A stretch of DNA of 48,155 nucleotides from Proteiniphilum sp. UBA5267. GTDB lineage: Bacteria; Bacteroidota; Bacteroidia; Bacteroidales; Dysgonomonadaceae. The notes below the pieces were generated by a model. It worked only from the letters and a program-made list of their open reading frames with translations, made no database searches and was not told the origin of the DNA. The stretch spans positions 53,389 to 101,543 of the forward strand of contig DHTF01000087.1 of NCBI GenBank assembly GCA_002411515.1. The letters run 5' to 3'. A program made the translations under genes and the position numbers. Of the stretch, positions 8,714-22,881 are shown one piece after another. How positions within the stretch are numbered: the first letter of the stretch is position 1; each line of letters begins with the position of its first letter.

Positions 8714-9928
8714 ATGAATGCAGTGATGGGAAAGCGAAACAAGAAGACACGATTGTCTCTGATGATGTTTCTTCAGTTTTTTATTCAAGGATCGTGGTAT
8801 GTTACCATGGGGACTTATTTGGGAAATACCCTTCGTTTTTCAGGGGTGGAGATTGGCTTGGCGTATAGTACGGCGGCTATTGCTGCCATTGTTTCTCCTG
8901 TGATAGTGGGAATGATTGCCGACCGGTTTTTCTCAGCCAACAGGGTGTTGGCATTTTTAAATATCACGGGAGCCTTTCTGCTGGTTTGGTTGACTCAAAT
9001 TGACCAGTTTGCGTTGTTTTTTCCGGTGTTGCTGATGTACACCATCTGTTTTATGCCTACCATGTCGTTGTGCAACGCCATTTCTTTTGATAACCTGACT
9101 GATACCGCTAAGGAGTTCTCCCGTATTCGTTTGTTTGGTTCATTTGGTTGGATCATAGCGGGTTTGCTGATTAGTTCGATGAATTTAGAGAAGCTCTCAA
9201 CCCCTTTTCTCATTGCCGCTGGCATATCTTTCCTCTCGGGTTTGTATGCTTTTACCCTTCCTTACAAGGCGCCTGAAAAAAGAGTTGAAAAGGCGACAGT
9301 GGGGCAGATTCTTGGATTTGACGCTTTTAAGCTGACTAAGGAGCGGTCGTTTCTGGTGTTGTTGGTGTTCTCGGCGATGACCTGCATCCCGCTCGCTTTC
9401 TATGACTCTTTTACCAATCTATTTATTGTGAATGTCGGCGTCAGTAATGCGGCTGCAGCTATGAGCATGGGGCAGGTGGCTGAAGTTGTCTTCCTTTTCG
9501 CATTTCCCCTCATCTTCCTGAAACTACGTTATAAGGGAAGTATTGTGGCGGCTATTGTGGCGTGGTTGCTGATGTATGGATTTTTTGCTCTCGGAGCGCG
9601 TACCGGAGAAGTGGGGTTCATTTATGCCGTGCTGCCGCTCCATGGATTCTGTTTTACCTTTTTCTTTGTTTCCGGACAATTGTTTGTGGATGAAAAGGCG
9701 CCCTCGTCGTTGCGCAACTCGGCGCAGGGGCTGATTGCATTTGCCACCTACGGTGTGGGTAAATATCTTGGTTCGCTGATAGCCGGAAATGTGGTGGATC
9801 AATACAGTACGGTTCAGGGTGCTTACAACTGGGTCTCTGTATGGACGGTGCCTTTTGTGATGACGTTGGTCATACTCCTTGGATTCATTGTCTTGTTCAA
9901 AGAGAAAAAGAATAAATTGGCAGCATGA
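8714..9928 (+). CDS. Nucleoside:H+ symporter family MFS transporter (NupG/XapB-like)
   Basis: The 404-residue product is a polytopic inner-membrane protein with about 12 hydrophobic helices and a short basic N-terminus. The opening segment (SLMMFLQFFIQGSWYVTMG), the inter-helix MIADRFFSANRVLAFLN and the helix-5 region RIRLFGSFGWIIAG resemble the nucleoside:H+ symporter branch of the major facilitator superfamily. The C-terminus ends in a basic FKEKKNK tail. Substrate is predicted from family only: purine or pyrimidine nucleosides, though Bacteroidota members of this branch are poorly characterised and a sugar-type substrate cannot be excluded. ATG 8714 is used; ATG 8726 (MGKRNKK) is an alternative. 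It is alone between a divergent GH2 gene and the SusCD pair. Confidence 0.83.
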   Translation: MNAVMGKRNKKTRLSLMMFLQFFIQGSWYVTMGTYLGNTLRFSGVEIGLAYSTAAIAAIVSPVIVGMIADRFFSANRVLAFLNITGAFLLVWLTQIDQFALFFPVLLMYTICFMPTMSLCNAISFDNLTDTAKEFSRIRLFGSFGWIIAGLLISSMNLEKLSTPFLIAAGISFLSGLYAFTLPYKAPEKRVEKATVGQILGFDAFKLTKERSFLVLLVFSAMTCIPLAFYDSFTNLFIVNVGVSNAAAAMSMGQVAEVVFLFAFPLIFLKLRYKGSIVAAIVAWLLMYGFFALGARTGEVGFIYAVLPLHGFCFTFFFVSGQLFVDEKAPSSLRNSAQGLIAFATYGVGKYLGSLIAGNVVDQYSTVQGAYNWVSVWTVPFVMTLVILLGFIVLFKEKKNKLAA

Positions 9929-10035: not shown

Positions 10036-13000
10036 ATGAATGAAACATTTAAAAAAATGAAAGCAAGTCGGAAACAACATGCATCCAAATTATGGGTGCT
10101 GCTGTTTTTTGTGTTGTGTACGGCAACCGTATCAGCACAAAAAATAGTAAAAGGGACCGTAAGTGATGTAAACGGAGAACCGTTGATTGGCGTGAATGTT
10201 GTAGTGAAAGATGCTGCCACAGCCATTGGAACCGTAACAGATGCGGACGGGTCCTATTCATTGAAGGTGCCGGGAGATAACTCCATCCTGGTATATTCCT
10301 ACATCGGCTACAACACTGTAGAAGTTGTTGTGGGAGCACAAACTGTCATTGATCAGATATTAACAGAAGAGACACAAATGATGGATGAATTGGTTGTGGT
10401 AGGTTACGGCGTTCAGAAGAAAGTGACCGTCACGGGCTCTGTGGCAAGCGTGGCTGGCGAAGATCTGAAAGCATCGCCCACCACCAACCTGTCGAATGCC
10501 ATCGTGGGTCGTATGCCGGGTGTAATTGGATTTCAACGTTCTGATGAGCCAGGAGGTGGTGGAACAACCATTCGTATTCGTGGAACGAACTCACTCGGAT
10601 TTAAAGACCCGTTGGTAGTAATTGATGGCGTGCCGGGACGTGCCGGCGGTCTGAATCGCATCAACCCCAATGAAATTGAGTCGATGTCGGTATTAAAAGA
10701 CGCTGCAGCAGCTATTTATGGTTCGCGTGCAGCCAATGGTGTAATCCTGATTACCACCAAACGGGGTAAAGAAGGGAAACCCACCATTACCTATACGGGA
10801 AATATGGGGTTCTCACAACCTACCCGCATCCCAGAGCTTGCCAATGCTTTTGAATATGCTACAATGGTGAATGAAATTGATAAATATTCCGGTCGGGATC
10901 CCCGTTATTCCGAGGAAGACCTTAGGCAATACCAGGATGGTTCCGATCCATGGGGACATCCAAATACGAACTGGTATAAAGAGACCATCAAGGATATTTC
11001 ACCCACCTATCGTCACGATGTCAGCATAACAGGTGGAAGCGACCGGTACAAGTTTTTTGTCAGCCTAGCCGCCAATGGAGAAGATGGTATTTATAAAAAT
11101 TCAGCAAACCGATATGACCAATTCAGTTCGCGGGTGAATCTGGATATGAAAGTAAACGACTATCTCGATATGTCGTACGGAAATGTCAATCGTCTGCAAG
11201 TTACAAATTATCCGGCACGTGGTGCCACGGATATCTTCAGCTCAATGGTTCGCAGTAAGCCTATCCTTCCTGCCTATTGGCCCAGCGGAGAGCCGGGACC
11301 AGATATTGAATACGGTGATAACCCTGTTGTTCGTGCTACTCCAGCAACCGGAAAAGATCTCTATAAAGCTTATTATATCCAGAATACGCTGCGGGCTACT
11401 TTCAAAGTGCCGGGTGTGGAAGGGTTGATCCTGACGGGAACTGCATCATATGACCAATATTTCAATAACCGGCGTCGTTTTGAAACACCATTCACCCTTT
11501 ATACATGGGATGGTAATAAGGAACATACGCTCACACCTTCTCTCAAGGGTGTATCTCAGCCTCAACTTGAGGAAAGAAGAGAAGAACAAACCGACTGGAT
11601 GACCAACCTTGTGGCTTCCTACGATCGTGCTTTTGGTAATCATAACTTTGGTATCACTGCAGGTGTGGAAGCACAGAAAAACCAGTGGCGCATGGTAAGG
11701 GCTACCCGTAAGTACTTCATATCTGATGCGTTGGATGAAATAAACAACGGATCGGTAACCGATATGGAAACAGAAGGATACTCCTGGACCGAGAGTCGTA
11801 TCAACTATTTCGGACGTGCAAATTACAACTATCTCGAAAAGTACCTGCTCGAGTTTGTATATCGGTACGACGGTTCTTACCGTTTCCCAAAAGATAAACG
11901 TTACGGATTCTTCCCGGGCGTATCTGCTGCCTGGCGTGCTTCGGAAGAGGAGTTCTGGAAGGAGAATCTTTCCTTTATCAATTATTTCAAACTACGTGGA
12001 TCAATTTCCCAGACGGGAAGTGATTATTTGCTCGATACCGGTGGAAATCTCGACAGAAGTATTCAATACCTCAACACCTACGGGTTCGGTACCGAGTACT
12101 TGTTTGGAACTTCATTCCAGAAGACCCTGTACCCCACACGTACTCCTAACCCAAACATTACCTGGGAGGTAGGAACAACCTATGATATGGGATTCGAATT
12201 TAAATTTCTCGACAACCGCTTAGGCGTAGAAACCGACCTGTTCTATCAGAAACGTACCAACATGTTGATTTACAGGAATGCCTCATTGCCACAGATCTCG
12301 GGAATTACCCTTCCAAGGGAGAATATCGGTGAAATGTCAAATAGAGGAATTGAGGGTTTGATTACCTGGAACGACAAAGCTGGAAAGGTGGAATATGATG
12401 CTTCTTTAAACATGACCTACTCAAAAAACAAGTTGCTTTTCTGGGATGAAACGCCGGGAATACCCGAATATCAGAAAAGAACCGGAAAACCGGTTAATAC
12501 GGAGTTGTGGTATATTGCCGATGGTGTGTTCAACACACAGGAGGAATTAAATAGCTACCCACATTGGGCCAATGCCAGAACCGGTGATATCAAGTTTATC
12601 GATACAAACGGTGACAAAATTATCGATGCCAATGACCGAGTTCGTTCCGATAAGAATTCAGAACCTACATTTGTCTTTGGTCTTACCTTGGGAGTCCGTT
12701 GGAATAACTTCGATTTGAGAACCTTGTTTCAGGGAGCTACAGGCGGTATCACTTATATCTGGCGTGAAAGAGCTGGAGAAGCTGGAAACTACTACAAGTT
12801 TATGTACGATAACCGCTGGACAGAGGAAAACCCGATGGTAGAACATCCGCGTGCCTATAACCGTGAAAATGAATATTGGGCAAAGCAGGGAACGGATCAG
12901 AAGAACACCTACTATCAGTTTAAGACCGATTATCTGCGCTTGAAAAATATGGAGTTAGGTTACACCTTTAATTTCCCGGCAATCCGCAATGTGGGTATCC

Positions 13001-13140
13001 AGAACCTGCGCTTGTATGTAAACGGAACCAACCTGTTTACGTTAGACAATGTAAAAGTACAAGACCCGGAAGCCAATGACACCGGTCGTGAATATCCGCA
13101 GCGTCGTATCTGGAATGCCGGTGTTTCTATCACTTTCTAA
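10036..13140 (+). CDS. SusC/RagA-type TonB-dependent outer-membrane receptor
   Basis: A 1034-residue outer-membrane transporter that, with its SusD partner, imports oligosaccharides or other large nutrients using TonB energy. It has a signal peptide (hydrophobic stretch 20-36, ending at VSAQ). Next comes a carboxypeptidase-regulatory-like domain (about 37-115) with VKGTVSDVNGEPLIGVNV, then a TonB-box-like DELVVVGYG (near 118-126). The plug domain contains GRMPGV and the IRIRGTNSLG/VVIDGVPG signature. A 22-strand-type barrel follows, ending in an aromatic C-terminus (GVSITF). It is directly followed by susD after 7 bp. The 107-bp upstream gap has a dyad (GCGAA-AA-TTCGC, 9988-9999) but no clear -7 element. 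No adjacent SusR/HTCS or sigma/anti-sigma gene is present, so regulation and substrate are unknown. Confidence 0.95.
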   Translation: MNETFKKMKASRKQHASKLWVLLFFVLCTATVSAQKIVKGTVSDVNGEPLIGVNVVVKDAATAIGTVTDADGSYSLKVPGDNSILVYSYIGYNTVEVVVGAQTVIDQILTEETQMMDELVVVGYGVQKKVTVTGSVASVAGEDLKASPTTNLSNAIVGRMPGVIGFQRSDEPGGGGTTIRIRGTNSLGFKDPLVVIDGVPGRAGGLNRINPNEIESMSVLKDAAAAIYGSRAANGVILITTKRGKEGKPTITYTGNMGFSQPTRIPELANAFEYATMVNEIDKYSGRDPRYSEEDLRQYQDGSDPWGHPNTNWYKETIKDISPTYRHDVSITGGSDRYKFFVSLAANGEDGIYKNSANRYDQFSSRVNLDMKVNDYLDMSYGNVNRLQVTNYPARGATDIFSSMVRSKPILPAYWPSGEPGPDIEYGDNPVVRATPATGKDLYKAYYIQNTLRATFKVPGVEGLILTGTASYDQYFNNRRRFETPFTLYTWDGNKEHTLTPSLKGVSQPQLEERREEQTDWMTNLVASYDRAFGNHNFGITAGVEAQKNQWRMVRATRKYFISDALDEINNGSVTDMETEGYSWTESRINYFGRANYNYLEKYLLEFVYRYDGSYRFPKDKRYGFFPGVSAAWRASEEEFWKENLSFINYFKLRGSISQTGSDYLLDTGGNLDRSIQYLNTYGFGTEYLFGTSFQKTLYPTRTPNPNITWEVGTTYDMGFEFKFLDNRLGVETDLFYQKRTNMLIYRNASLPQISGITLPRENIGEMSNRGIEGLITWNDKAGKVEYDASLNMTYSKNKLLFWDETPGIPEYQKRTGKPVNTELWYIADGVFNTQEELNSYPHWANARTGDIKFIDTNGDKIIDANDRVRSDKNSEPTFVFGLTLGVRWNNFDLRTLFQGATGGITYIWRERAGEAGNYYKFMYDNRWTEENPMVEHPRAYNRENEYWAKQGTDQKNTYYQFKTDYLRLKNMELGYTFNFPAIRNVGIQNLRLYVNGTNLFTLDNVKVQDPEANDTGREYPQRRIWNAGVSITF

Positions 13141-13147
13141 ATAAAAT

Positions 13148-15043
13148 ATGATTATGAGAAAAATAAAACAACTGACAATAATTATCGTATTGGGGTTTGC
13201 TATCCTCCTGTATGCCTGCTCCGATTTCATGGATATTGTTCCCTCTACTTCTTATACTGAAGAGATGGTCTTTACCGATGCTGCCCTGACACAGGCTTTC
13301 GTCAACGATTTGTACAATAACATTCATCCGGGAGCAAAGGAACATTCTCTCGACGGATTGACCGACGATGCCTATTTTACCCATAACTACGGTCAAAAAG
13401 ATGTAGTGGAAGCGGTCTCTATTTCAGAGACGAACCTTCAATGGTATAACAACGACAACAATCCGTTTAAGTGGCAAAAAAGATACAGCGGCATCCGCTT
13501 TGCAAATATCATCATCAATAACATTGAGAATGTACCCGAGAAAATCGGATATAATCTTGAGCGAATGACTGGTGAAGCCTATTATATGCGTGCACACATG
13601 TACCATGAACTTGTTCGCGGTTTTGGTGGAGTGCCCATTATAACTGAAGACTTTTCACTCGATCAGATGGAGGAAATGAAAAAACCGCGCAGCAACATGC
13701 GTGAATGTCTGGAGTTTATCGTAAGCGATCTGGAGAAAGCAGAACAATACCTGCCTGCTACAGTGGGTGCATCAGAATGGGGTCGTGTAACCAAATATGT
13801 TGCTACTGGATTGAAAGCCCGTATCTTGCTGCACGTTGCCAGTCCACTCTACGCAGATCGCACGATCAATACCCTCGATGTGAATCAGTTCGACGGTGAC
13901 CGCATGGCTACCTATCGCGCTGCAAAAGATGCAGCAATTAAAGTGATTGAAGAAGGTCCCTTCGAGCTGATCGATTGCAAGGGAGGCAGTAATACCGATA
14001 GAGCCGAAAAATTCAAAGCTATCATGACCGATACCCGGAATAGCGAACAGATGTTTGTCCGGAATTATCACACCTCCATCGGCGCTGAGAACAGAATGGG
14101 TTTGTGGCACGGTCCCAATGGTTATCATAACTGGGCGGGAACGACACCAACACAGGACCTGGTAATGGCTTTTGAGTTTGAAGACGGATCGATGCCCATA
14201 GGAATGACCAAGCCGGGTGAGTTCCAGAAGGGAAATCCCTATAATGGACGTGAACCGCGTTTTTATGCTACCGTGGCTACCGACGGGAATACTTGGGGAC
14301 GGCCTCGCCCAGCAGATGCCGTTACACTGGATCCCACTCCACTGGGGCGCCTACAGGCTGGAAAATATGAAGTTACCAACGGAGACGTGGAGATTGAATA
14401 CCGCGATGGTGTGAAACGTCGCTCCATGTGGGGAGTAGACACACGTCAGGGTCCTATTGAGGACTGGAACGGATCGTGGACAGGTTATTATGAGAAGAAA
14501 CTGATTGACACCTCGGTCGACGCCCAGTACTTCAGACAAACCGTACCCCACGTCTACATGCGTTTGGCAGAGATGTACCTGATTGCGGCAGAGGCATGTG
14601 TGGAACTCAATGAGTTGGAAGAAGCGGCAGAATGGCTGGACATCCTGCGCGGACGTATCGACCTGAAGGATACCAGAACTGCGTTGATTGCAAGGGGTAA
14701 ACAATTTAACCAGGCCGACATGCGGGAGTTCGTACGGCAGCAAAGACGAGTTGAATTTGCATATGAACAGCACCGATACTTCGATATCCGTCGTTGGATG
14801 ATTGGGCCGGAATGTGGCAATAAACCTTTAACCGGGATTGTGGTAGAGGGTATCCTAAAACCGGGACAAACATCGATGAAACCCTACATTCACAACGAGG
14901 ATAAATATGATTATTACTATTATGTAAATGATCTCTCCAGTCGTGAAAACAGAAAGTGGCTGGATAAGATGTACTTTGCTCCCATTCACCAGGATGAGAT
15001 TCGACGTAATCCCAACCTGGTTCAAAATCCAGGTATGGATTGA
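13148..15043 (+). CDS. SusD/RagB-type nutrient-binding outer-membrane lipoprotein
   Basis: A 631-residue surface lipoprotein, the lid/binding partner of the preceding SusC. The signal peptide ends in a lipobox LLYAC (Cys near 20). The N-terminal SusD domain (DFMDIVPSTSYTEEMVF...) and the TPR-containing RagB/SusD C-terminal domain are present. Typical landmarks are GEAYYMRAHMYHELVRGFGGVPI, ARILLHVASPLYAD and VPHVYMRLAEMYLIAAEACVEL, each in its expected order. An alternative start at 13154 (MRKIKQ) gives an equally good signal peptide. It lies 7 bp after susC and is followed by a strong terminator, so the SusCD unit ends here. Substrate cannot be inferred. Confidence 0.95.
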   Translation: MIMRKIKQLTIIIVLGFAILLYACSDFMDIVPSTSYTEEMVFTDAALTQAFVNDLYNNIHPGAKEHSLDGLTDDAYFTHNYGQKDVVEAVSISETNLQWYNNDNNPFKWQKRYSGIRFANIIINNIENVPEKIGYNLERMTGEAYYMRAHMYHELVRGFGGVPIITEDFSLDQMEEMKKPRSNMRECLEFIVSDLEKAEQYLPATVGASEWGRVTKYVATGLKARILLHVASPLYADRTINTLDVNQFDGDRMATYRAAKDAAIKVIEEGPFELIDCKGGSNTDRAEKFKAIMTDTRNSEQMFVRNYHTSIGAENRMGLWHGPNGYHNWAGTTPTQDLVMAFEFEDGSMPIGMTKPGEFQKGNPYNGREPRFYATVATDGNTWGRPRPADAVTLDPTPLGRLQAGKYEVTNGDVEIEYRDGVKRRSMWGVDTRQGPIEDWNGSWTGYYEKKLIDTSVDAQYFRQTVPHVYMRLAEMYLIAAEACVELNELEEAAEWLDILRGRIDLKDTRTALIARGKQFNQADMREFVRQQRRVEFAYEQHRYFDIRRWMIGPECGNKPLTGIVVEGILKPGQTSMKPYIHNEDKYDYYYYVNDLSSRENRKWLDKMYFAPIHQDEIRRNPNLVQNPGMD

Positions 15044-15303: not shown

Positions 15304-16884
15304 ATGTCTAGATTTTCAAAAAGAAACAGGAGGCCAGACAAAAAAAAACACGGACGAAGAGGCCTTATTCTGTTGTCAGGAATCATCATAGGAATTGTGC
15401 TTGTGGCAGCTTTGTACCAGACTTCCGTCTATTTCTCCTCCAACGAATCGTGTATGATGTGTCATGTTCATCCTCACGCGGAAGAGAGCTGGAAACTTTC
15501 CACTCATGTGAATAACGGTAGCGGCGTAATGGTTAATTGTGTGGACTGTCACCTTCCTCCCAAAGACAATACCTGGGAACATTACACAGCCAAGATGGCA
15601 TTGGGTGCACGTGATGTATGGGGATATCTCACCAAAGATAGTACCGATTTCAACTGGGATAAAAAATCGGAACTGGAAAATGCGGTGAAATACATCCCCA
15701 ATAAATCCTGTGTAAAATGTCACCAGAATCTTTTTCCCGAGGGGGTTACCGACGATGGCATCACCGCACACCTCTATTACGAAGAGAATGCCGAAAAACT
15801 TGATCTGCAGTGCATCAGCTGCCATCTCGATGTGGGACACTACAATCCCAATTATGCCCACGGCCAGATGGCGGGTATTCCGGGAATGGGCGGGTCGTAC
15901 GCTGTGGATACCAGTCTCTATTTTAAAGAACCCACTGTCGTCACTGCTTTTGCCGACTACCGGGAACAGGTGCCCGGCACAGCCGTATCATTCCTGATGA
16001 GGGCAATACCTGGAGGAACCTTCAGCATGGGAAGTCCGGAAAAGGAACCTTTCCGCAACACAGATGAATCGCCGCAGCATGAGGTGGAAGTCACCTCTTT
16101 CTTTATGGCAGAACTCGAAACAACCTGGGATCAGTATTGGTCGTTTTATGCCGAGACAATGAGCGAGGGACGTACGCCCCCGGAGACAGTTTATGAGAAT
16201 AACCTTACCGCACTTGGCGTGGATGCCATTTCAGGACCCACACCTCCTTTCGGTTATCCCGATCAGGGATGGGGGCAGGGCGACCGCCCAGCCATCACGA
16301 TGACACACTATGCCGCAGAGACATACTGTCAGTGGTTATCGGCAAAAACAGGAAAGAAATATCGTTTGCCTACCGAGGCTGAGTGGGAATATGCTGCACG
16401 TGGTGGCAAGCAGACAGCCTATTTCTTTCCGGGCAGCCCAAAAGATTTTTCTGCACACGGATTCATGCGAAATATCTTCAAACCCAAAACCGACAGCATC
16501 AGTGCCTATGTTGTCTACGATGTTAATAGCGACAGCCGCACACAACCGCCTTCTGTTGTTTTAGCCAATCCCTACGGGTTGAAGAATATATTGGGAAATG
16601 TGATGGAGTATACGGCCGATAAATATGACCCCAAGGCATACGGCAAGCGGTCGGGAGTTACCCGCGATCCGGTGGTTACACAAGGCGACGAGTGGGTGGT
16701 CCGTGGCGGTAGTTATGTTTCCGATGCTTCCGAAGTGCGGAGTGCTGCCCGGGCGCATACACATCACGAGGCGTGGCTCAAGACCGACCCGCAGCAGCCC
16801 AAGAGCATCTGGTGGTATTCCGATATCAAAGGGATCGGTTTTCGTGTGGTATGCGAGCCGGGTGACTCGCTGATAGCACGTTAA
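15304..16884 (+). CDS. NapC/NirT-type tetraheme cytochrome c fused to an SUMF1 (FGE-like) domain
   Basis: A 526-residue fusion. Residues 1-20 are basic, and 21-44 form one membrane anchor with the rest outside. Residues 45-180 resemble NrfH/NapC quinol dehydrogenases, with four heme-binding motifs: CMMCH (50-54), CVDCH (79-83), CVKCH (136-140) and CISCH (170-174). The usual CXXCHxM Met after heme 1 is replaced by His (CMMCHVH). From about 230 to the end is an SUMF1/EgtB/PvdO-type domain beginning MRAIPGGTFSMGS and ending in GIGFRVVCE. The cysteine pair of true formylglycine-generating enzymes is missing (WVVRGGSYVSDASEVRSAAR), so sulfatase activation is not supported. NapC-type proteins normally pass electrons between menaquinol and a periplasmic partner; no nrfA or napA is nearby. 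It is probably the first gene of the cassette. TACTTTTA at 15233-15240 is a weak promoter candidate. Confidence 0.9.
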   Translation: MSRFSKRNRRPDKKKHGRRGLILLSGIIIGIVLVAALYQTSVYFSSNESCMMCHVHPHAEESWKLSTHVNNGSGVMVNCVDCHLPPKDNTWEHYTAKMALGARDVWGYLTKDSTDFNWDKKSELENAVKYIPNKSCVKCHQNLFPEGVTDDGITAHLYYEENAEKLDLQCISCHLDVGHYNPNYAHGQMAGIPGMGGSYAVDTSLYFKEPTVVTAFADYREQVPGTAVSFLMRAIPGGTFSMGSPEKEPFRNTDESPQHEVEVTSFFMAELETTWDQYWSFYAETMSEGRTPPETVYENNLTALGVDAISGPTPPFGYPDQGWGQGDRPAITMTHYAAETYCQWLSAKTGKKYRLPTEAEWEYAARGGKQTAYFFPGSPKDFSAHGFMRNIFKPKTDSISAYVVYDVNSDSRTQPPSVVLANPYGLKNILGNVMEYTADKYDPKAYGKRSGVTRDPVVTQGDEWVVRGGSYVSDASEVRSAARAHTHHEAWLKTDPQQPKSIWWYSDIKGIGFRVVCEPGDSLIAR

Positions 16885-16990
16885 TCGATAAGGTGCTGGA
16901 TATAAAACCAACAAATGACGGTTGACTGCGAAAGCGGATTTATTGACAATACAACTTTTAATCATATACAATATCCTAAAACAAAGAAAG

Positions 16991-18367
16991 ATGAAAAAAG
17001 AAAACAATGTAACCAGAAGATCGTTTCTGAAAGCCTCAGCTGTAGCCGGGGCAGTAGGAGTTATCGGAACAGGCTCTGCAGGATTGTTGACCTCCTGTAG
17101 CGGATCAGAAAAGGGTAAAAGTGCCAACACCCCCTTGAAAGAGCCGGGAAGCTATTACATTCCCGAACTTCCTGATTTGGCTGCGGACGGCAAAGAACTG
17201 AAAGCAGGTGTGGTAGGCTGTGGCGGACGTGGATCGGGTGCTGCCATCAACTTTCTGAATTCTGCCAATGGTGTCACCATCGTAGCGCTGGGAGACGTAT
17301 TCCAGGACAAGGTCGATGGACTGGCCGATAAACTGAAAGCGGACAAAAATATAGATATTCCCGCTGAGAAACGTTTCGTGGGTCTGGATGCATACAAACA
17401 GGTGATCGATAGTGATATTGATATTCTTATCTGTGCCACTCCTCCTTTCTTCCGTGCCGAACATTTCAAATATGCAGTTGAAAAGAACAAACACTGCTTT
17501 TTGGAAAAACCTATTTGTGTGGATGCAGCCGGATACCGTACAATCGTGGCAGCGGCCAAACAAGCTCAGGCAAAAAACCTCTGCGTAGTTACCGGTACAC
17601 AGCGCCACCACCAACGCAGTTATGTAGAGTCTTATAAGCAAATCATGAACGGTGCCATAGGCGAGATCACAGGCGGAGTAGTATACTGGAACCAAAGTAT
17701 GCTCTGGTATCGCGAACGTCAACCACAGTGGAGTGATTTTGAATTTATGGTACGCGACTGGGTGAACTGGAAATGGCTCTCTGGCGATCATATTGTAGAA
17801 CAGCATGTACACAACATCGATGTCTTCACCTGGTTCTCGGGCCTGAAGCCGGTGAGCGCCGTGGGATTCGGTTCACGCCAACGTCGTGTGACCGGAGATC
17901 AGTATGATAATTTCAGCATCGACTTCACCATGGAGAACGGCATCCACCTGCACAGCATGTGTCGTCAGATTGATGGCTGCGCCAACAATGTGAGCGAGTT
18001 CATCCAAGGCACCAAAGGTTCTTGGTCGAGCAATGGCGGACATGTCATCAAGGATCTGGCTGGCAACGTGATCTGGCAATATGATGGTGAAGCAGAGAAA
18101 ACCAGTTTCCAGCAGACCGATCCATATACACTGGAACATGTGAATCTGGTTAACTGCATCCGTAGCAACAAACCCATTGAACAGGCTTCAGAAACAGCGG
18201 TTTCCAATATGGCAGCCATCATGGGCCGTGAGTCGGCCTACACAGGACAAGAAACTACCTGGGACGCAGTGACCGCCTCACCGTTGGATTATACCCCGGC
18301 CGACATGAATATCGGCAAAATGGATATGTCCGGATTTACGGTTCCTGTACCGGGAAGCGCCAAATAA
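16991..18367 (+). CDS. Tat-exported Gfo/Idh/MocA-family oxidoreductase lipoprotein
   Basis: A 458-residue product starting MKKENN. It carries a twin-arginine signal (TRRSFLKAS, RR at 9-10), a hydrophobic stretch, and a lipobox-like LLTSC (Cys 36), predicting folded, cofactor-loaded export and lipid anchoring. The Rossmann domain begins AGVVGCGGRGSG (near 72) and contains the family FLEKPI motif. The second domain has GDHIVEQHVHNIDVF, with the likely catalytic His. Relatives oxidise or epimerise sugars with tightly held NAD(P); an exported precedent is Zymomonas glucose-fructose oxidoreductase. The GH109 glycosidase hallmark is not seen. A longer frame back to TTG 16922 was rejected because it adds 23 residues before the Tat signal. 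It is 106 bp after the cytochrome fusion and 10 bp before the isomerase. Substrate unknown. Confidence 0.9.
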   Translation: MKKENNVTRRSFLKASAVAGAVGVIGTGSAGLLTSCSGSEKGKSANTPLKEPGSYYIPELPDLAADGKELKAGVVGCGGRGSGAAINFLNSANGVTIVALGDVFQDKVDGLADKLKADKNIDIPAEKRFVGLDAYKQVIDSDIDILICATPPFFRAEHFKYAVEKNKHCFLEKPICVDAAGYRTIVAAAKQAQAKNLCVVTGTQRHHQRSYVESYKQIMNGAIGEITGGVVYWNQSMLWYRERQPQWSDFEFMVRDWVNWKWLSGDHIVEQHVHNIDVFTWFSGLKPVSAVGFGSRQRRVTGDQYDNFSIDFTMENGIHLHSMCRQIDGCANNVSEFIQGTKGSWSSNGGHVIKDLAGNVIWQYDGEAEKTSFQQTDPYTLEHVNLVNCIRSNKPIEQASETAVSNMAAIMGRESAYTGQETTWDAVTASPLDYTPADMNIGKMDMSGFTVPVPGSAK

Positions 18368-18377
18368 CAACCTCGTT

Positions 18378-19292
18378 ATGACAATCGACAGAAGAAAATT
18401 TATTCAGACCACTCTCGCCGGTACTGCTGCCCTCGCAATTGGAGGTAGTAATTCTGTGGCTTCTGCCAGTCCGAAGAAGGAAAAAGCTCCCGGTAAGGTG
18501 AAATTAAACATCTCTTTTCAGGAAGGCACCGCTCCCGGTGCCAGCCTGAAGGAGAAGTTCGATTTTATGGAAGCACATGGTGTGGTAGGCTTTGAACCGC
18601 ATGGAAAGCCTTTACTCGAACGGAAACAGGAATTCAAAGATGCCCTCAAAGGACGAAACATCAAAGTGAGTGCTGTGTGTGCCGGATTCGACGGATTTAT
18701 TCTTTCCACCGATCCTGCTATTCGTAAGCAGTGTCGCGATTCGATGGCCGAGTTAATCATTGCCGCCGGTGAATTTGGTTCTACAGGCGTGATCATTGTT
18801 CCTGCCTTTAACAACCAGGTGCCGGTGATGCCACACACGCAGGCAACACGCGACTTCCTTTGTGAGCAGTTCAATGAGATGGGAACGCTGGCACAAAAGC
18901 ATGGCACGACTGTTATCCTGGAGCCGCTGAATCGCAAGGAAGCTTTCTACCTTCGACAGGTGGGCGATGCAGCTTCCATCTGTCGGGACATCAACAATCC
19001 GGGTGTGAAATGCATGGGCGATTTTTGGCACATGACCTGGGAGGAAAACTCCGACAAGGGGGCATTTATCTCCGCAGGTGAACATCTGCAGCATGTGCAT
19101 GTAGCGAGCCGCAAGCGTCGCAGCATGCCCGGAGAAGATGGTGAAGCCGACAATTACGTAAATGGATTCAAAGGCCTTAAGATGCTGGGGTACGACAAGT
19201 ATGTCAGCTTTGAGTGCGGCTGTCAGGGCGAACGCGCCGTCGTAGTGCCCGCTGCCCTGGAACTGCTTCGCAAACAATGGGAAGAAGCTTGA
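18378..19292 (+). CDS. Tat-exported TIM-barrel sugar isomerase/epimerase-like protein
   Basis: A 304-residue protein with a Tat signal (DRRKFIQTT, RR at 5-6; probable cleavage after ASA near 30) and a xylose-isomerase-like/AP-endonuclease-2-type TIM barrel related to hydroxypyruvate isomerase. Likely metal-binding positions are the Glu in VILEPLNR, the Asp/His in MGDFWHM, the His in LQHVHVASR and the Glu in VSFECGC. The family isomerises or epimerises keto/aldo sugars in the cytosol; an exported version placed 10 bp after an exported sugar-type dehydrogenase suggests both act on the same substrate in the periplasm. Alternative roles in this superfamily include keto-sugar epimerase or dehydratase. 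The 12-bp terminator-like stem downstream marks the end of this sub-unit. Confidence 0.87.
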   Translation: MTIDRRKFIQTTLAGTAALAIGGSNSVASASPKKEKAPGKVKLNISFQEGTAPGASLKEKFDFMEAHGVVGFEPHGKPLLERKQEFKDALKGRNIKVSAVCAGFDGFILSTDPAIRKQCRDSMAELIIAAGEFGSTGVIIVPAFNNQVPVMPHTQATRDFLCEQFNEMGTLAQKHGTTVILEPLNRKEAFYLRQVGDAASICRDINNPGVKCMGDFWHMTWEENSDKGAFISAGEHLQHVHVASRKRRSMPGEDGEADNYVNGFKGLKMLGYDKYVSFECGCQGERAVVVPAALELLRKQWEEA

Positions 19293-19321
19293 ACACTTTA
19301 TTCCTACTGAACTTTATATCG

Positions 19322-19359
19322 TAAAATGAGCGAAGGATGAATTTCTTTCGCTCATTTTA
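19322..19359 (+). terminator. Perfect hairpin between isomerase and ccsBA
   Basis: AAAATGAGCGAA (19323-19334) pairs perfectly with TTCGCTCATTTT (19347-19358), extended by T19322-A19359. The A and T ends of the stem allow action in either direction. It sits 30 bp after the isomerase stop and 40 bp before ccsBA, so it would end or attenuate transcription inside the cassette. No -7 element is apparent between the hairpin and ccsBA. Confidence 0.7.
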
Positions 19360-19398
19360 GTCCATAAAAAAGGCAAAACTGAGAATATAAATCGACTG

Positions 19399-21816
19399 AT
19401 GGATAAGTTAATAAATGCCCTCTCCTCCTACAAGACCAGCATCGTACTATTGCTTCTGTACGCAACCGGATTGGCAACAGCAACACTTGTGGAGAAACAG
19501 ATGAATACTGAGGCAGCAAAAATGCTGGTATATTACTCACCGCTGTTTATCCTCTTGCAGTTTCTGCTGGTGATCAATTTCCTCCTGGTGTTCGTCCGCT
19601 ACAACTATATCAAACGCAGGAAGTGGGCAATGATTGTGGTGCATCTTGCCCTCATTGTGATAATGGGTGGAGCGCTCACCACATTTCTGTTTGGCAAGGA
19701 AGGACAAGTACACATCCGTGAAGGAGAGCGTACCGATGAAATGGTGATGCACACCTCGAGGGGAGTCAAAACAGAAAAAATGCCTTTTGTGCTGGAACTT
19801 ATCGATTTCAGGCTGCACCGCTATCCCGGATCTCAGAGTCCCTCTTCCTATGAGAGCGATCTGCAGGTGCATATCGATGGGGACGTGCGCAAAACAAAGA
19901 TATTCATGAACAATGTGCTGGATCTGAAAGGATATCGTTTCTTTCAGGCTTCCTATGATGAGGATGAGCTGGGAACCATTCTTTCGGTGAATAAAGATGT
20001 GGCGGGTCGTACCATCACGTACAGCGGTTATGCGTTGTTATTGTTCGGCTTTCTGCTGATGTTCTTTATGCCGAATTCCCGTTTTAGGAAGTTGGGGCGA
20101 CAACTCAGAGAAGCACGAGAGGAGGCCGGCAAGCTGACTCTCATTGCTGCCATGTTGCTTGTTCCGCTCATCGCCTTTGGAGAACCAGACGATTCACTTC
20201 ACCAAATTACAATTCCCGAAGATCATGCAGCCCGGTTCGGTGCATTGCCGGTACAATTCCACGGACGGGTCATGCCCATGAATACCTTCTCCTCCGAGAT
20301 CCTGCGAAAAATATACAAAGAACAGACTTTCGGCACTCTCTCTTCCGATCAGTTTCTGCTCGGACTGCTCTCCATACCGCAGAAGTGGATGGAGGTGCCT
20401 TTTATCGCACTTCCGAATGAACAGATCAGCATGCAATATAATCTTCCGAAAGACGTTGCTCCCTATTACCATTTTTTCGATCAGGAAGGGAATTATCGTT
20501 TGCTGCCACAACTGCAGCAAATCTATCATCGGCCAGCTTCCGAACGAACAGCAGCAGAGAAGGATTTGATTCAACTCGATGAGCGCATCCACATCGTCTA
20601 TCAGCTGATCCATTATGCCATGCCGGGCATTTTCCCAAATCCGGGCGATCCCTCCCACACTTGGTATGCACCCGGTGATGATCTCTCCGATTTTCATCCC
20701 CAGGACTCACTGTTTATTGCCGGTATTTTTAACCAATATCTGTCGGAAGTGCGACTGGCACTGCAGCATGGCGACTGGAGCAAAGCCAATGAACGACTGG
20801 ATGACATTGCTCGTTATCAGCAACAAAACGACAAAGCTTCACTCATACAACCCAAAAAGATCGACGCCGAAGTACGCTACAACCAGATGAATATCTTTAG
20901 CCGCACCAGAACAGGTTATTTCATTTTCGGTGGGATTCTTTTAATTCTTGCGTTCTTGCAAATGTGGCAGAGACGCGATTGGCTGCGTAGCGCGATATTT
21001 TCAGCGGTTGTTTTTATCGTGTCTCTCTTCATTTATCATACCGCGGGCATGGCCCTACGGTGGTATATTTCGGGTTATGCACCCTGGAGTAACTCTTATG
21101 AAACCATGGTTTATGTAGCTTGGGCTACGGTACTCGCGGGATTCATCTTTGGTCGTAAAAATAGCCTCACCTTGGCTTTGGCGACTCTTTTCGGAGGAGT
21201 TATTCTCTTTGTCTCCGGCCTCAATTGGATGGATCCACAAATCAACACCCTTGTGCCGGTATTGAAATCGCCCTGGCTCATGTTTCATGTGGCGGTGATT
21301 GTGGCGGCATACGGATTCTTTGGAATCAGCTTTTTACTCGGGATTACCAACCTCTCCCTGATGGCTTTTTCAAAAAAGAATCTCTCTCTGTCGATTCGTA
21401 TCAGGGAACTGACCATCATCAATAACCTGTCGTTGTTGGTGGGACTTGCCTTGATGACCATCGGCACCTTTCTGGGGGCTATTTGGGCAAACGAGTCATG
21501 GGGCCGCTATTGGGGATGGGATCCCAAGGAGACCTGGGCATTGATTACCATCGTGGTCTATTCCATTGTCACCCACCTCCATCTGGTGAAAAAGTGGCAG
21601 AGTGAATGGCGGTTCAATCTGCTGTCGGTCTTTGCTTTCTCTGCCGTGCTGATGACTTTCCTTGGAGTGAATTATTTCCTGAGTGGGATGCACTCTTATG
21701 GGCAAACCAATAGTAACGCTGCTGTTTTTTTGTATATTGCAGCTGCTTTCGTGGCATTGGGTATATTGGGTGGCGTTTCTTACAGAGCAAATAAGAGCGT
21801 CAGCCAAATAAAGTGA
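19399..21816 (+). CDS. ccsBA: Fused ResB-CcsA cytochrome c biogenesis protein (CcsBA type)
   Basis: An 805-residue System II cytochrome c synthase that exports heme and attaches it to CXXCH motifs outside the inner membrane. The N-terminal ResB-like part (residues 1-240) has transmembrane helices and a helix His in MIVVHLALI (His 82). A large extracytoplasmic region (about 250-500) follows. The CcsA part has a WWD-type heme-handling motif WGRYWGWDPKETW (701-713) with flanking His candidates in SPWLMFHVAV, THLHLV (726/728) and SGMHSYG (765). ResB and CcsA are commonly fused in Bacteroidota and often sit beside nrfHA. Here no nrfA is present; the only multiheme cytochrome in the window is the NapC-SUMF1 fusion upstream, which it is likely to mature. 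Confidence 0.93.
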   Translation: MDKLINALSSYKTSIVLLLLYATGLATATLVEKQMNTEAAKMLVYYSPLFILLQFLLVINFLLVFVRYNYIKRRKWAMIVVHLALIVIMGGALTTFLFGKEGQVHIREGERTDEMVMHTSRGVKTEKMPFVLELIDFRLHRYPGSQSPSSYESDLQVHIDGDVRKTKIFMNNVLDLKGYRFFQASYDEDELGTILSVNKDVAGRTITYSGYALLLFGFLLMFFMPNSRFRKLGRQLREAREEAGKLTLIAAMLLVPLIAFGEPDDSLHQITIPEDHAARFGALPVQFHGRVMPMNTFSSEILRKIYKEQTFGTLSSDQFLLGLLSIPQKWMEVPFIALPNEQISMQYNLPKDVAPYYHFFDQEGNYRLLPQLQQIYHRPASERTAAEKDLIQLDERIHIVYQLIHYAMPGIFPNPGDPSHTWYAPGDDLSDFHPQDSLFIAGIFNQYLSEVRLALQHGDWSKANERLDDIARYQQQNDKASLIQPKKIDAEVRYNQMNIFSRTRTGYFIFGGILLILAFLQMWQRRDWLRSAIFSAVVFIVSLFIYHTAGMALRWYISGYAPWSNSYETMVYVAWATVLAGFIFGRKNSLTLALATLFGGVILFVSGLNWMDPQINTLVPVLKSPWLMFHVAVIVAAYGFFGISFLLGITNLSLMAFSKKNLSLSIRIRELTIINNLSLLVGLALMTIGTFLGAIWANESWGRYWGWDPKETWALITIVVYSIVTHLHLVKKWQSEWRFNLLSVFAFSAVLMTFLGVNYFLSGMHSYGQTNSNAAVFLYIAAAFVALGILGGVSYRANKSVSQIK

Positions 21817-21908
21817 GCGTAGCGAACAAGCAACACACACAAAGTGAGTGAATAATGTGCGCAGCACGAATAATGTGAACGGAGGGAACAAATAACGCGT
21901 AGCAAAGA
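21804..21908 (+). repeat. Degenerate tandem repeat in the ccsBA-oxidoreductase gap
   Basis: The gap consists almost entirely of imperfect copies of a short pattern, roughly (G/A)CG-N-AG(C/G)-GAA-(C/T)AA. Copies include GCGTAGCGAACAA, GCGCAGCACGAATAAT, ACGGAGGGAACAAATAA and GCGTAGC, joined by GTG. The pattern begins at the end of the ccsBA coding sequence (AGCGTCAGCCAAATAA). It has no good start codon of its own and no hairpin typical of a terminator. It looks like a slipped or amplified low-complexity element. Confidence 0.5.
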
Positions 21909-21909
21909 T

Positions 21910-22881
21910 ATGATACACTGGGGCTTTATTGGTTGCGGAAACGTGACGGAAAAGAAAAGCGGACCAGCCTTCAGCAAGGTGGAAGGTTCGGATGTTGTTG
22001 CGGTGATGCGGCGTGACATAGACAAAGCGAAAGATTATGCTCGTCGACATGGTGTCGGGAAATGGTACGACAACGCCGCGGATCTGATCAATGATCCGCA
22101 GGTGAATGCCGTTTATGTGGCTACTCCTCCCGGTTCCCATGCGGAACATGCCATTGCTGCCATGAGGGCCGGTAAGCCAGTCTATGTTGAGAAACCAATG
22201 GCGGCCTCTTATGAGGAGTGCTGCCGGATGAACCAGGTTTCTGCAGAGACCGGTATTCCTTGCTTTGTCGCATATTATCGTCGCACGCTGCCTTATTTTC
22301 TCAGAGTGAAGCAGTTGATTGACGATGGCTTGTTGGGTGAAATCTCCACCGTGCAGATACGTTTTGCCATTCCACCTTACGCGACCGATTATGATCGGGA
22401 AAATCTTTCCTGGAGGGTGAAAAAAGAGATTGCTGGAGCCGGTTATTTTTATGACCTTGCATCCCATCAGTTCGATCTGCTTGATTTTCTGTTTGGAGAG
22501 ATTGCGCAGACAGAAGGTTTTTCGGATAATAGGGCAGGTTTATATGATGTAGAAGATACCGTTGCGGCTGCTTTCAGATTCCATTCTGGTATTGTGGGAA
22601 GTGGAAGCTGGAGTTTCGTTGCTCCGCAAGATACCCGGACCGACCGGATTGATGTGGTGGGTACAAAGGGAAAACTTTCCTTTTCCACATTCGATTTCTC
22701 GACCATCCTTTTGGAGTCCGCCAGTGGAATTCAAGAGTTTAGTGAAGCAAATCCAGAAAATATTCAGTATTACCTGATTCAACAAATCGTAAATTACCTG
22801 AATGGTCGGGGCGAGCTACCGGTTAGCACAGGTGCAACGGCACTACGTACAAATTGTATAATGGATGAAATTTTAGGATAA
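21910..22881 (+). CDS. Gfo/Idh/MocA-family oxidoreductase (cytosolic)
   Basis: A 323-residue NAD(P)-dependent oxidoreductase with no signal peptide. The nucleotide-binding motif HWGFIGCGNVTEKKSGPA is at the N-terminus. ATPPGSHAEHA and the YVEKPMA lysine motif (near 95) follow, and the C-terminal alpha/beta domain has AGAGYFYDLASHQFDLLDF with the expected active-site His. Members oxidise or reduce sugars, inositols or related polyols. It is shorter and much diverged from the Tat-exported paralog upstream, so it is not a recent duplication. Being cytosolic and last in the cassette, it may act on the imported product of the periplasmic steps; this is inference. Its 3' end overlaps the convergent transporter gene by 9 bp. 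Confidence 0.9.
   Translation: MIHWGFIGCGNVTEKKSGPAFSKVEGSDVVAVMRRDIDKAKDYARRHGVGKWYDNAADLINDPQVNAVYVATPPGSHAEHAIAAMRAGKPVYVEKPMAASYEECCRMNQVSAETGIPCFVAYYRRTLPYFLRVKQLIDDGLLGEISTVQIRFAIPPYATDYDRENLSWRVKKEIAGAGYFYDLASHQFDLLDFLFGEIAQTEGFSDNRAGLYDVEDTVAAAFRFHSGIVGSGSWSFVAPQDTRTDRIDVVGTKGKLSFSTFDFSTILLESASGIQEFSEANPENIQYYLIQQIVNYLNGRGELPVSTGATALRTNCIMDEILG

Follow-up and report, generated by a model that had tools for sequence, protein, structure and literature searches.

We analyzed a window of 48,155 nucleotides from Proteiniphilum sp. UBA5267 (contig DHTF01000087.1); "the window" below means this whole stretch. Five genes on its forward strand encode a NapC/NrfH-like tetraheme cytochrome fused to a SUMF1-like domain, a Gfo/Idh dehydrogenase exported by twin-arginine translocation (Tat), a Tat-exported TIM barrel, CcsBA, and a second Gfo/Idh enzyme without a signal peptide. 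Our main finding is that the core of this system is the SUMF1-like domain together with the exported Gfo/Idh dehydrogenase, and that this core is wider than the NapC fusion. The SUMF1 domain is the hub of the system. The initial annotation overlooked this role, just as it missed that relatives repeatedly have ApbE as a partner and that cytochromes of a second kind are also fused to the domain. On the other hand, its placement of the five genes (coordinates and strand) agreed with our check of the open reading frames (ORFs), and its domain calls agreed with Pfam. We think that the locus may be a periplasmic glycoside or sugar dehydrogenase wired to the quinone pool, and we place the full electron-relay model a little short of an even chance. 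What sequence comparison shows is the parts themselves, the pairing of SUMF1 with Gfo, two cytochrome fusions, a single NapC clade, the invariant CxxCH and putative quinone-site residues, and the linkage of ApbE in relatives. The more interesting object is a SUMF1-Gfo module with interchangeable electron outlets, which goes beyond the cassette first described.

A search with the fusion protein gave 7786 relatives at E<=0.001 among 7997 scored, many of them perhaps matching through one domain only. The 120 best of these 7786 were 67-97% identical to the query, and the nearest included entries named Porphyromonadaceae, Fermentimonas, and Proteiniphilum. Besides its own genome, 19 of 24 genomes of the same genus had a near full-length match, and one had a fragment. 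Loci were then collected from named genomes, from 392 evenly sampled genomes of the phylum, and from the relatives, and their genes were marked by profiles. The named-genome loci were picked by the motifs TEAEWEY and QPKSIWW, and the best 80 of at least 526 were kept. The Gfo, ApbE, and TIM profiles were built from the named-genome and relative loci plus the window. After de-duplication there were 123 loci, 33 with the NapC fusion and 90 with a standalone SUMF1. These counts omit 14 weak SUMF1s (L088-L093, L095-L102) and the duplicates L067 (same contig as L184) and L146. Several loci are truncated where their contigs end, and the first-look genome scans scored the best 3-4 candidates per genome.

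A Gfo gene of the same subfamily was located within 500 bp of SUMF1 in all 33 fused loci and in 68 of the 90 standalone loci (several phyla). A TIM-barrel gene lay within 3.5 kb in 26/33 fused and 30/90 standalone loci, CcsBA was nearby in 16/33 and 0/90, and ApbE lay within 3.5 kb in 33 of the 90 standalone loci. That is, the association of the fusion with the two Tat-exported proteins, on which the initial annotation had built its cassette, is conserved. Inside the genus, Gfo, TIM, and CcsBA were each present in 15 of 15 fused loci; in the 18 fused loci outside it, the corresponding numbers were 18, 11, and 1. The phylum sample taken by itself (42 loci) gave Gfo in 35, ApbE in 14, and TIM in 20. 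In the same sample the Gfo subfamily was encoded in 41/41 genomes with SUMF1 (E<=1e-40) versus 29/351 others; the comparison includes genomes with the two genes apart, and 24 of the 41 SUMF1-positive genomes supplied rows to its Gfo set. The Bacteroidales-type order was NapC-SUMF1, Gfo, and often TIM, and a frequent standalone order was SUMF1-Gfo-ApbE-TIM (for example L063, L072, L156, L164, L174, and L180). The mirror-tree correlation was 0.84 for 97 SUMF1-Gfo pairs and 0.67 for 64 standalone pairs; it has no species-tree control, and we do not use it as proof.

In HMMER alignments of the SUMF1-like domain with the formylglycine-generating enzyme (FGE) 6s07, GGSFLC of the enzyme was aligned with GGSYVS, while the second FGE cysteine falls outside these alignments or in a gap. 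Because the active-site Cys after GGS is missing, we rejected the domain as an active FGE. The insert DPQxPKSxWW, found in 0/14 outgroup SUMF1s, is conserved in the Gfo-linked subfamily, part of whose loci were chosen partly by QPKSIWW. In the tree, the NapC-fused SUMF1s formed one clade of 33 tips with support 1.0, so the NapC-SUMF1 fusion arose once. In addition, five related verrucomicrobial SUMF1 proteins carried PSCyt1 cytochrome domains and no NapC. The main sign that SUMF1 sits between a cytochrome and a dehydrogenase is that it is joined to two kinds of the former and that its usual neighbor is the latter. A YceI-like protein adjoins SUMF1 in L039 (3897-4439), L050, L051, and L060, of which L039 was checked for PF04264; YceI binds isoprenoid quinones.

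The fusion is a single protein that matched both Cytochrom_NNT (5.4e-26) and FGE-sulfatase (5.4e-38), with a PF03264 score of 91.8 bits against a cut-off of 24.1. It has four CxxCH motifs (residues 50, 79, 136, and 170), and a structure model predicts an N-terminal helix at residues 16-44. The K97/D104 pair, aligned with two residues of NrfH that we take to belong to its quinone site, was invariant in 48/48 fused rows, as was CxxCH. These invariant residues make a link to the quinone pool plausible, as the initial annotation had proposed. The fusion matched the NrfH, NapC, and TorC models, each under its cut-off; for the NrfH equivalog TIGR03153 the score was 69.7 versus a curated cut-off of 134.2. 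At the position of NrfH M49, residue 56 of the fusion (window 15469-15471) was His in 48/48 rows, which suggests that the first heme may have a different ligand or potential.

The exported Gfo begins with MKKENNVTRRSFLK, a Tat signal with a possible lipobox LTSC. The ORF list gives this gene as 16922-18367, with an upstream TTG as the start. The protein matches PF01408 and has the Gfo/Idh fold, and its residues G76, G78, R80, G81, E172-K173-P174 (the EKP motif), and H274 were invariant in 67 aligned rows. We take the glycines to be nucleotide-binding, and the EKP motif and the His to be functional residues of the family. The TIM protein begins with MTIDRRKFIQ and is related to 3kws (E 4e-145) and to the 3-keto-D-glucoside 4-epimerase 6wn6 (E 2.2e-22 over 247 residues). 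On the maps, 12 of the 15 loci of the genus were judged by eye to have a Gfo gene after CcsBA; one of the loci, L135, is cut off where its contig ends. Elsewhere in the genome (L212:7519-13219), the neighbors of a GH127-type beta-L-arabinofuranosidase include a TIM barrel and two more Gfo genes from this subfamily, with no SUMF1. Such extra Gfo genes suggest that the fusion could serve several dehydrogenases.

We propose that the system acts as follows. SusCD would carry a glycoside over the outer membrane, and the Tat-exported Gfo/Idh enzyme would oxidize a hydroxyl, most likely at C3, using bound nicotinamide as expected from its family. The reducing equivalents would pass to the SUMF1-like domain as a docking and relay module, where a flavin mononucleotide (FMN) that ApbE may have linked to T313 of the DAISGPT loop would turn two-electron hydride chemistry into one-electron steps. 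Menaquinone would then receive the electrons from the fused NrfH-type tetraheme domain, whose hemes CcsBA would attach. The exported TIM barrel would epimerize or isomerize the keto sugar, which the permease of the major facilitator superfamily (MFS) would import and the cytosolic Gfo would re-reduce. The potential of menaquinone is about -0.07 V and that of the ketone/alcohol couple about -0.2 V; oxidation would thus be downhill, and we prefer it to reduction.

The FMN step was considered from the loop and from the occurrence of ApbE. The motif of ApbE targets is given, in the part of PMC12052999 that covers it, as D-x-x-[S/T]-G-A-[S/T], and the conserved loop of the SUMF1 subfamily is D-[AG]-[IV]-[ST]-G-[PA]-T. 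Over the 123 loci, position 1 was D in 119 and E in 4, position 4 was S or T in 105, and in every locus position 6 was P or A and position 7 was S or T. The strict pattern D..[ST].[PA][ST] was found in 0/14 outgroup SUMF1s. Eight members had the exact ApbE motif (3/33 fused and 5/90 standalone); the window has P for A. ApbE was encoded in 38/38 standalone-SUMF1 genomes versus 37/60 control genomes, which were also without the Gfo subfamily and were not matched by family or size. Six loci have ApbE near SUMF1 and no nearby Gfo; SUMF1 borders the end of a contig in two of the six (L051 and L085). One local ApbE was checked and matched PF02424 (6.5e-77). We also considered that the local ApbEs might be dead enzymes; by eye, the H, D, and S/T residues are retained in most of them, and one group (including two Pedobacter and one Sphingobacterium) has N for T. 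A tie between G at loop position 5 and the absence of a local ApbE was not significant among standalone loci (1/8 vs 32/82, p 0.25); on the same question, the fused loci (0/33 with a local ApbE) are all one clade.

The genome itself encodes two PF02424 genes. An ApbE-like gene (271 aa) lies between Gfo/Idh genes of 468 and 443 aa (L215:7669-11227), and two further members of the genus (L227, L228) have similar ApbE-Gfo pairs; these loci gave no SUMF1 profile match. Near the better-scoring ApbE (L214:8831-12287), a PF06439 3-keto-disaccharide hydrolase protein is encoded two ORFs downstream, with a porin-like ORF between. As a target of ApbE, Gfo is disfavored because its alignment has no conserved [ST]GA[ST]-like site, but ApbE-Gfo clusters without SUMF1 do exist.

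Several observations weigh against the proposed relay and its flavin. ApbE was found within 3.5 kb of none of the 33 fused loci and of none of the eight exact-motif members. At loop position 6, 30/33 fused loci and 82/90 standalone loci have P for A; among the standalone loci, 60/90 have R for G at position 5 and 15/90 have A at position 4. One of the 14 outgroup SUMF1s, L091 (DRFAEAT), fits a relaxed version of the motif. ApbE was present in 18/25 fused genomes and was not found in the other 7, two of which are >=90% complete; six of these seven carry FMN_bind proteins, which would need ApbE, and this suggests assembly gaps. In L194-L198 the neighbor of ApbE is Gfo and no SUMF1 adjoins them, which leaves Gfo or some other protein as a potential ApbE target. 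Of the five PSCyt1-SUMF1 genes, L042 alone has a Gfo within 500 bp, and one (L061) has an adjoining ApbE; the PSCyt1 fusion is therefore less informative about Gfo than the NapC fusion. The structure model of the fusion is weak, with a mean predicted local distance difference test (pLDDT) score of 75.5 and a motif loop below 50. NapC/NrfH proteins, moreover, normally oxidize quinol. Because of the P for A, the R for G, the lack of ApbE by fused and exact-motif loci, and the ApbE-Gfo clusters without SUMF1, we rate covalent FMN on the SUMF1 loop low, as a doubtful proposal. The same doubt applies to the general idea that a subfamily of the SUMF1/formylglycine fold turned into an ApbE-flavinylated carrier on a D-x-x-[ST]-x-[PA]-[ST] loop, which would let nicotinamide-dependent Gfo/Idh enzymes respire periplasmic sugars through lineage-specific cytochromes (NapC in Bacteroidales, PSCyt1 in Verrucomicrobia), one carrier perhaps serving several exported Gfo enzymes.

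Electrons might also flow the other way: menaquinol would feed them via the tetraheme domain and SUMF1 to a Gfo that reduces a periplasmic keto sugar, as an anaerobic sink like NrfA or the flavin-linked reductases. The models matched below cut-off are those of quinol dehydrogenases, and part of the report on the NapC-family protein ImoA (PMC9600427) gives evidence of quinol oxidation. SusCD, the epimerase, and the importer would nevertheless fit catabolism, and the potentials given above favor oxidation, so that we regard reverse flow as unlikely. Another reading is that SUMF1 is a non-redox scaffold, or a sugar-binding module like a C-type lectin, at which Gfo docks to the membrane or the cytochrome; electrons, if any, would then pass from Gfo directly to heme, and ApbE would serve another protein. 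This agrees with the presence of the SUMF1-fold proteins PorK/GldK, which have structural roles, among the relatives, with ApbE beside Gfo where SUMF1 is not adjacent, and with a loop that in most members does not follow the ApbE consensus. The strict loop and the insert, both absent from the 14 outgroup SUMF1s, and the six loci in which ApbE accompanies SUMF1 without a nearby Gfo speak against it, and we consider it possible but rather improbable.

The domain could, on the other hand, be an active oxidase of the formylglycine, EgtB, or PvdO type that modifies some protein or metabolite in the periplasm, the cytochrome being its electron partner. It matches PF03781, and PvdO is its top structural match among the matches listed; but the Cys after GGS is missing, a sugar dehydrogenase is the conserved neighbor, and the 18 window proteins scanned include no sulfatase, which makes this reading highly improbable. 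The initial annotation had explained the locus as an nrf operon with nrfA replaced by sugar enzymes and with CcsBA as the set's own assembly factor. CcsBA, which joins ResB and Cytochrom_C_asm in one chain, does flank the sugar genes together with the NapC domain in every locus of the genus. Outside the genus, however, it accompanies a single fused locus; its association is nearly genus-specific. Furthermore, the genome keeps a separate nrfH-nrfA-like cluster (L151), followed by apparent split ResB and CcsA genes; these calls rest on gene order and heme counts, that of nrfA on position and four CxxCH. SUMF1-Gfo pairs are also widespread without NapC or CcsBA. From these results we rejected an nrf-derived operon, which now seems scarcely credible, and NapC was more probably added to a sugar module than the other way round.

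Compared with known systems, the fusion resembles the tetraheme quinol dehydrogenases NrfH, NapC, and CymA in its four CxxCH motifs, N-terminal helix, and K/D pair, and differs from them in H56, the C-terminal SUMF1 domain, and the sugar-enzyme neighbors. The Bacteroides genes BT2156-BT2160, a 3-keto-disaccharide pathway, likewise combine Gfo/Idh enzymes with a TIM-barrel enzyme in Bacteroidota. Unlike in that pathway, the exported Gfo scored 34.8 bits against the BT_2158 glycoside 3-dehydrogenase model NF058561 (cut-off 750) and the cytosolic Gfo 45 bits against the BT_2159 model (cut-off 650), and no 3-keto hydrolase was found in the 18 window proteins scanned. Glucose-fructose and aldose-aldose oxidoreductases share the Gfo/Idh fold. 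They are exported or contain tightly bound nicotinamide adenine dinucleotide phosphate, and a second sugar re-oxidizes their cofactor, so that no cytochrome is needed. LacA is a flavin enzyme of the GMC type with a small cytochrome. In the sections of PMC9007349 on the LacABC-type glucoside 3-dehydrogenase and 3-keto-glycoside hydrolase of Caulobacter and Agrobacterium, there is periplasmic sugar oxidation, as proposed here, by a membrane-bound dehydrogenase with epimerases, a reductase, and a transporter near; here the catalyst would be Gfo/Idh and the relay NapC-SUMF1. ApbE-dependent flavinylated carriers, as far as they are treated in sections of PMC8238504, PMC11334425, and PMC12052999, are similar in being extracytoplasmic, in the D-x-x-[ST]-x-x-[ST] loop, in the presence of ApbE (in relatives here), and in coupling to redox proteins, and differ in having A where the loop here has P. 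In the main-text sections covered, the terms "SUMF1", "sulfatase", and "Gfo" are absent from PMC8238504 and PMC11334425, "formylglycine" from PMC11334425, and "SUMF1" from PMC12052999. Our literature searches of open-access papers gave no description of the gene set. To our knowledge, it is an open question how exported Gfo/Idh enzymes, working outside the cytosol, re-oxidize their bound nicotinamide. A dedicated relay that accompanies exported Gfo/Idh enzymes in several phyla and has been fused to cytochromes of two kinds offers a testable answer. If this is true, part of "fermentative" glycan breakdown would be respiration, and a set of SUMF1-annotated proteins would gain a new role.

Table 1. 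Features of the locus, in window coordinates.
Feature	Position	Strand	Basis
MFS transporter (Nuc_H_symport), likely importer	8714..9928	+	set membership presumed
SusC-like outer-membrane transporter	10036..13140	+	set membership presumed from position
SusD-like lipoprotein	13148..15043	+	set membership presumed from position
NapC/NrfH-like tetraheme cytochrome fused to SUMF1-like domain, 526 aa	15304..16884	+	ORF list, Pfam
NapC/NirT domain, residues 19-183	15358..15852	+	PF03264
K97..D104 of fusion, aligned with K82 and D89 of NrfH chain 2j7a_C	15592..15615	+	alignment
SUMF1/FGE-like domain, residues 234-488	16003..16767	+	Pfam
DAISGPT loop, residues 307-313; T313 proposed FMN site	16222..16242	+	resembles ApbE flavinylation motif
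DPQQPKSIWW insert, residues 495-504	16786..16815	+	conserved in Gfo-linked SUMF1 subfamily
Tat-exported (possibly lipoprotein) Gfo/Idh dehydrogenase	16991..18367	+	Pfam; conserved partner of SUMF1
Tat-exported xylose-isomerase-like TIM barrel	18378..19292	+	Pfam, structure-chain sequence matches
Hairpin, 16 bp, terminator-like, between TIM and CcsBA	19322..19359	+	folding
CcsBA cytochrome c synthase, 805 aa	19399..21816	+	Pfam
Gfo/Idh oxidoreductase without signal peptide, predicted cytosolic	21910..22881	+	Pfam

The gaps between the five genes are, in order, 106, 10, 106, and 93 bp. The hairpin listed in Table 1 folds with -23.7 kcal/mol (z -6.75), and since it separates TIM from CcsBA, a single five-gene transcript is doubtful. 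Scans for E. coli-type promoters (10 sites vs 11.6 in shuffles) and terminators (10 vs 8.5) gave no excess; the stem-loop of this hairpin is too long for the terminator scan. Two degenerate copies of GTGAGCGTAGCGAACA lie in and around the gap preceding the cytosolic Gfo gene (window 21813-21890). At <=3 mismatches the window holds four matches to this sequence; the mean of the shuffles was 1.3, and 4/100 shuffles reached four.

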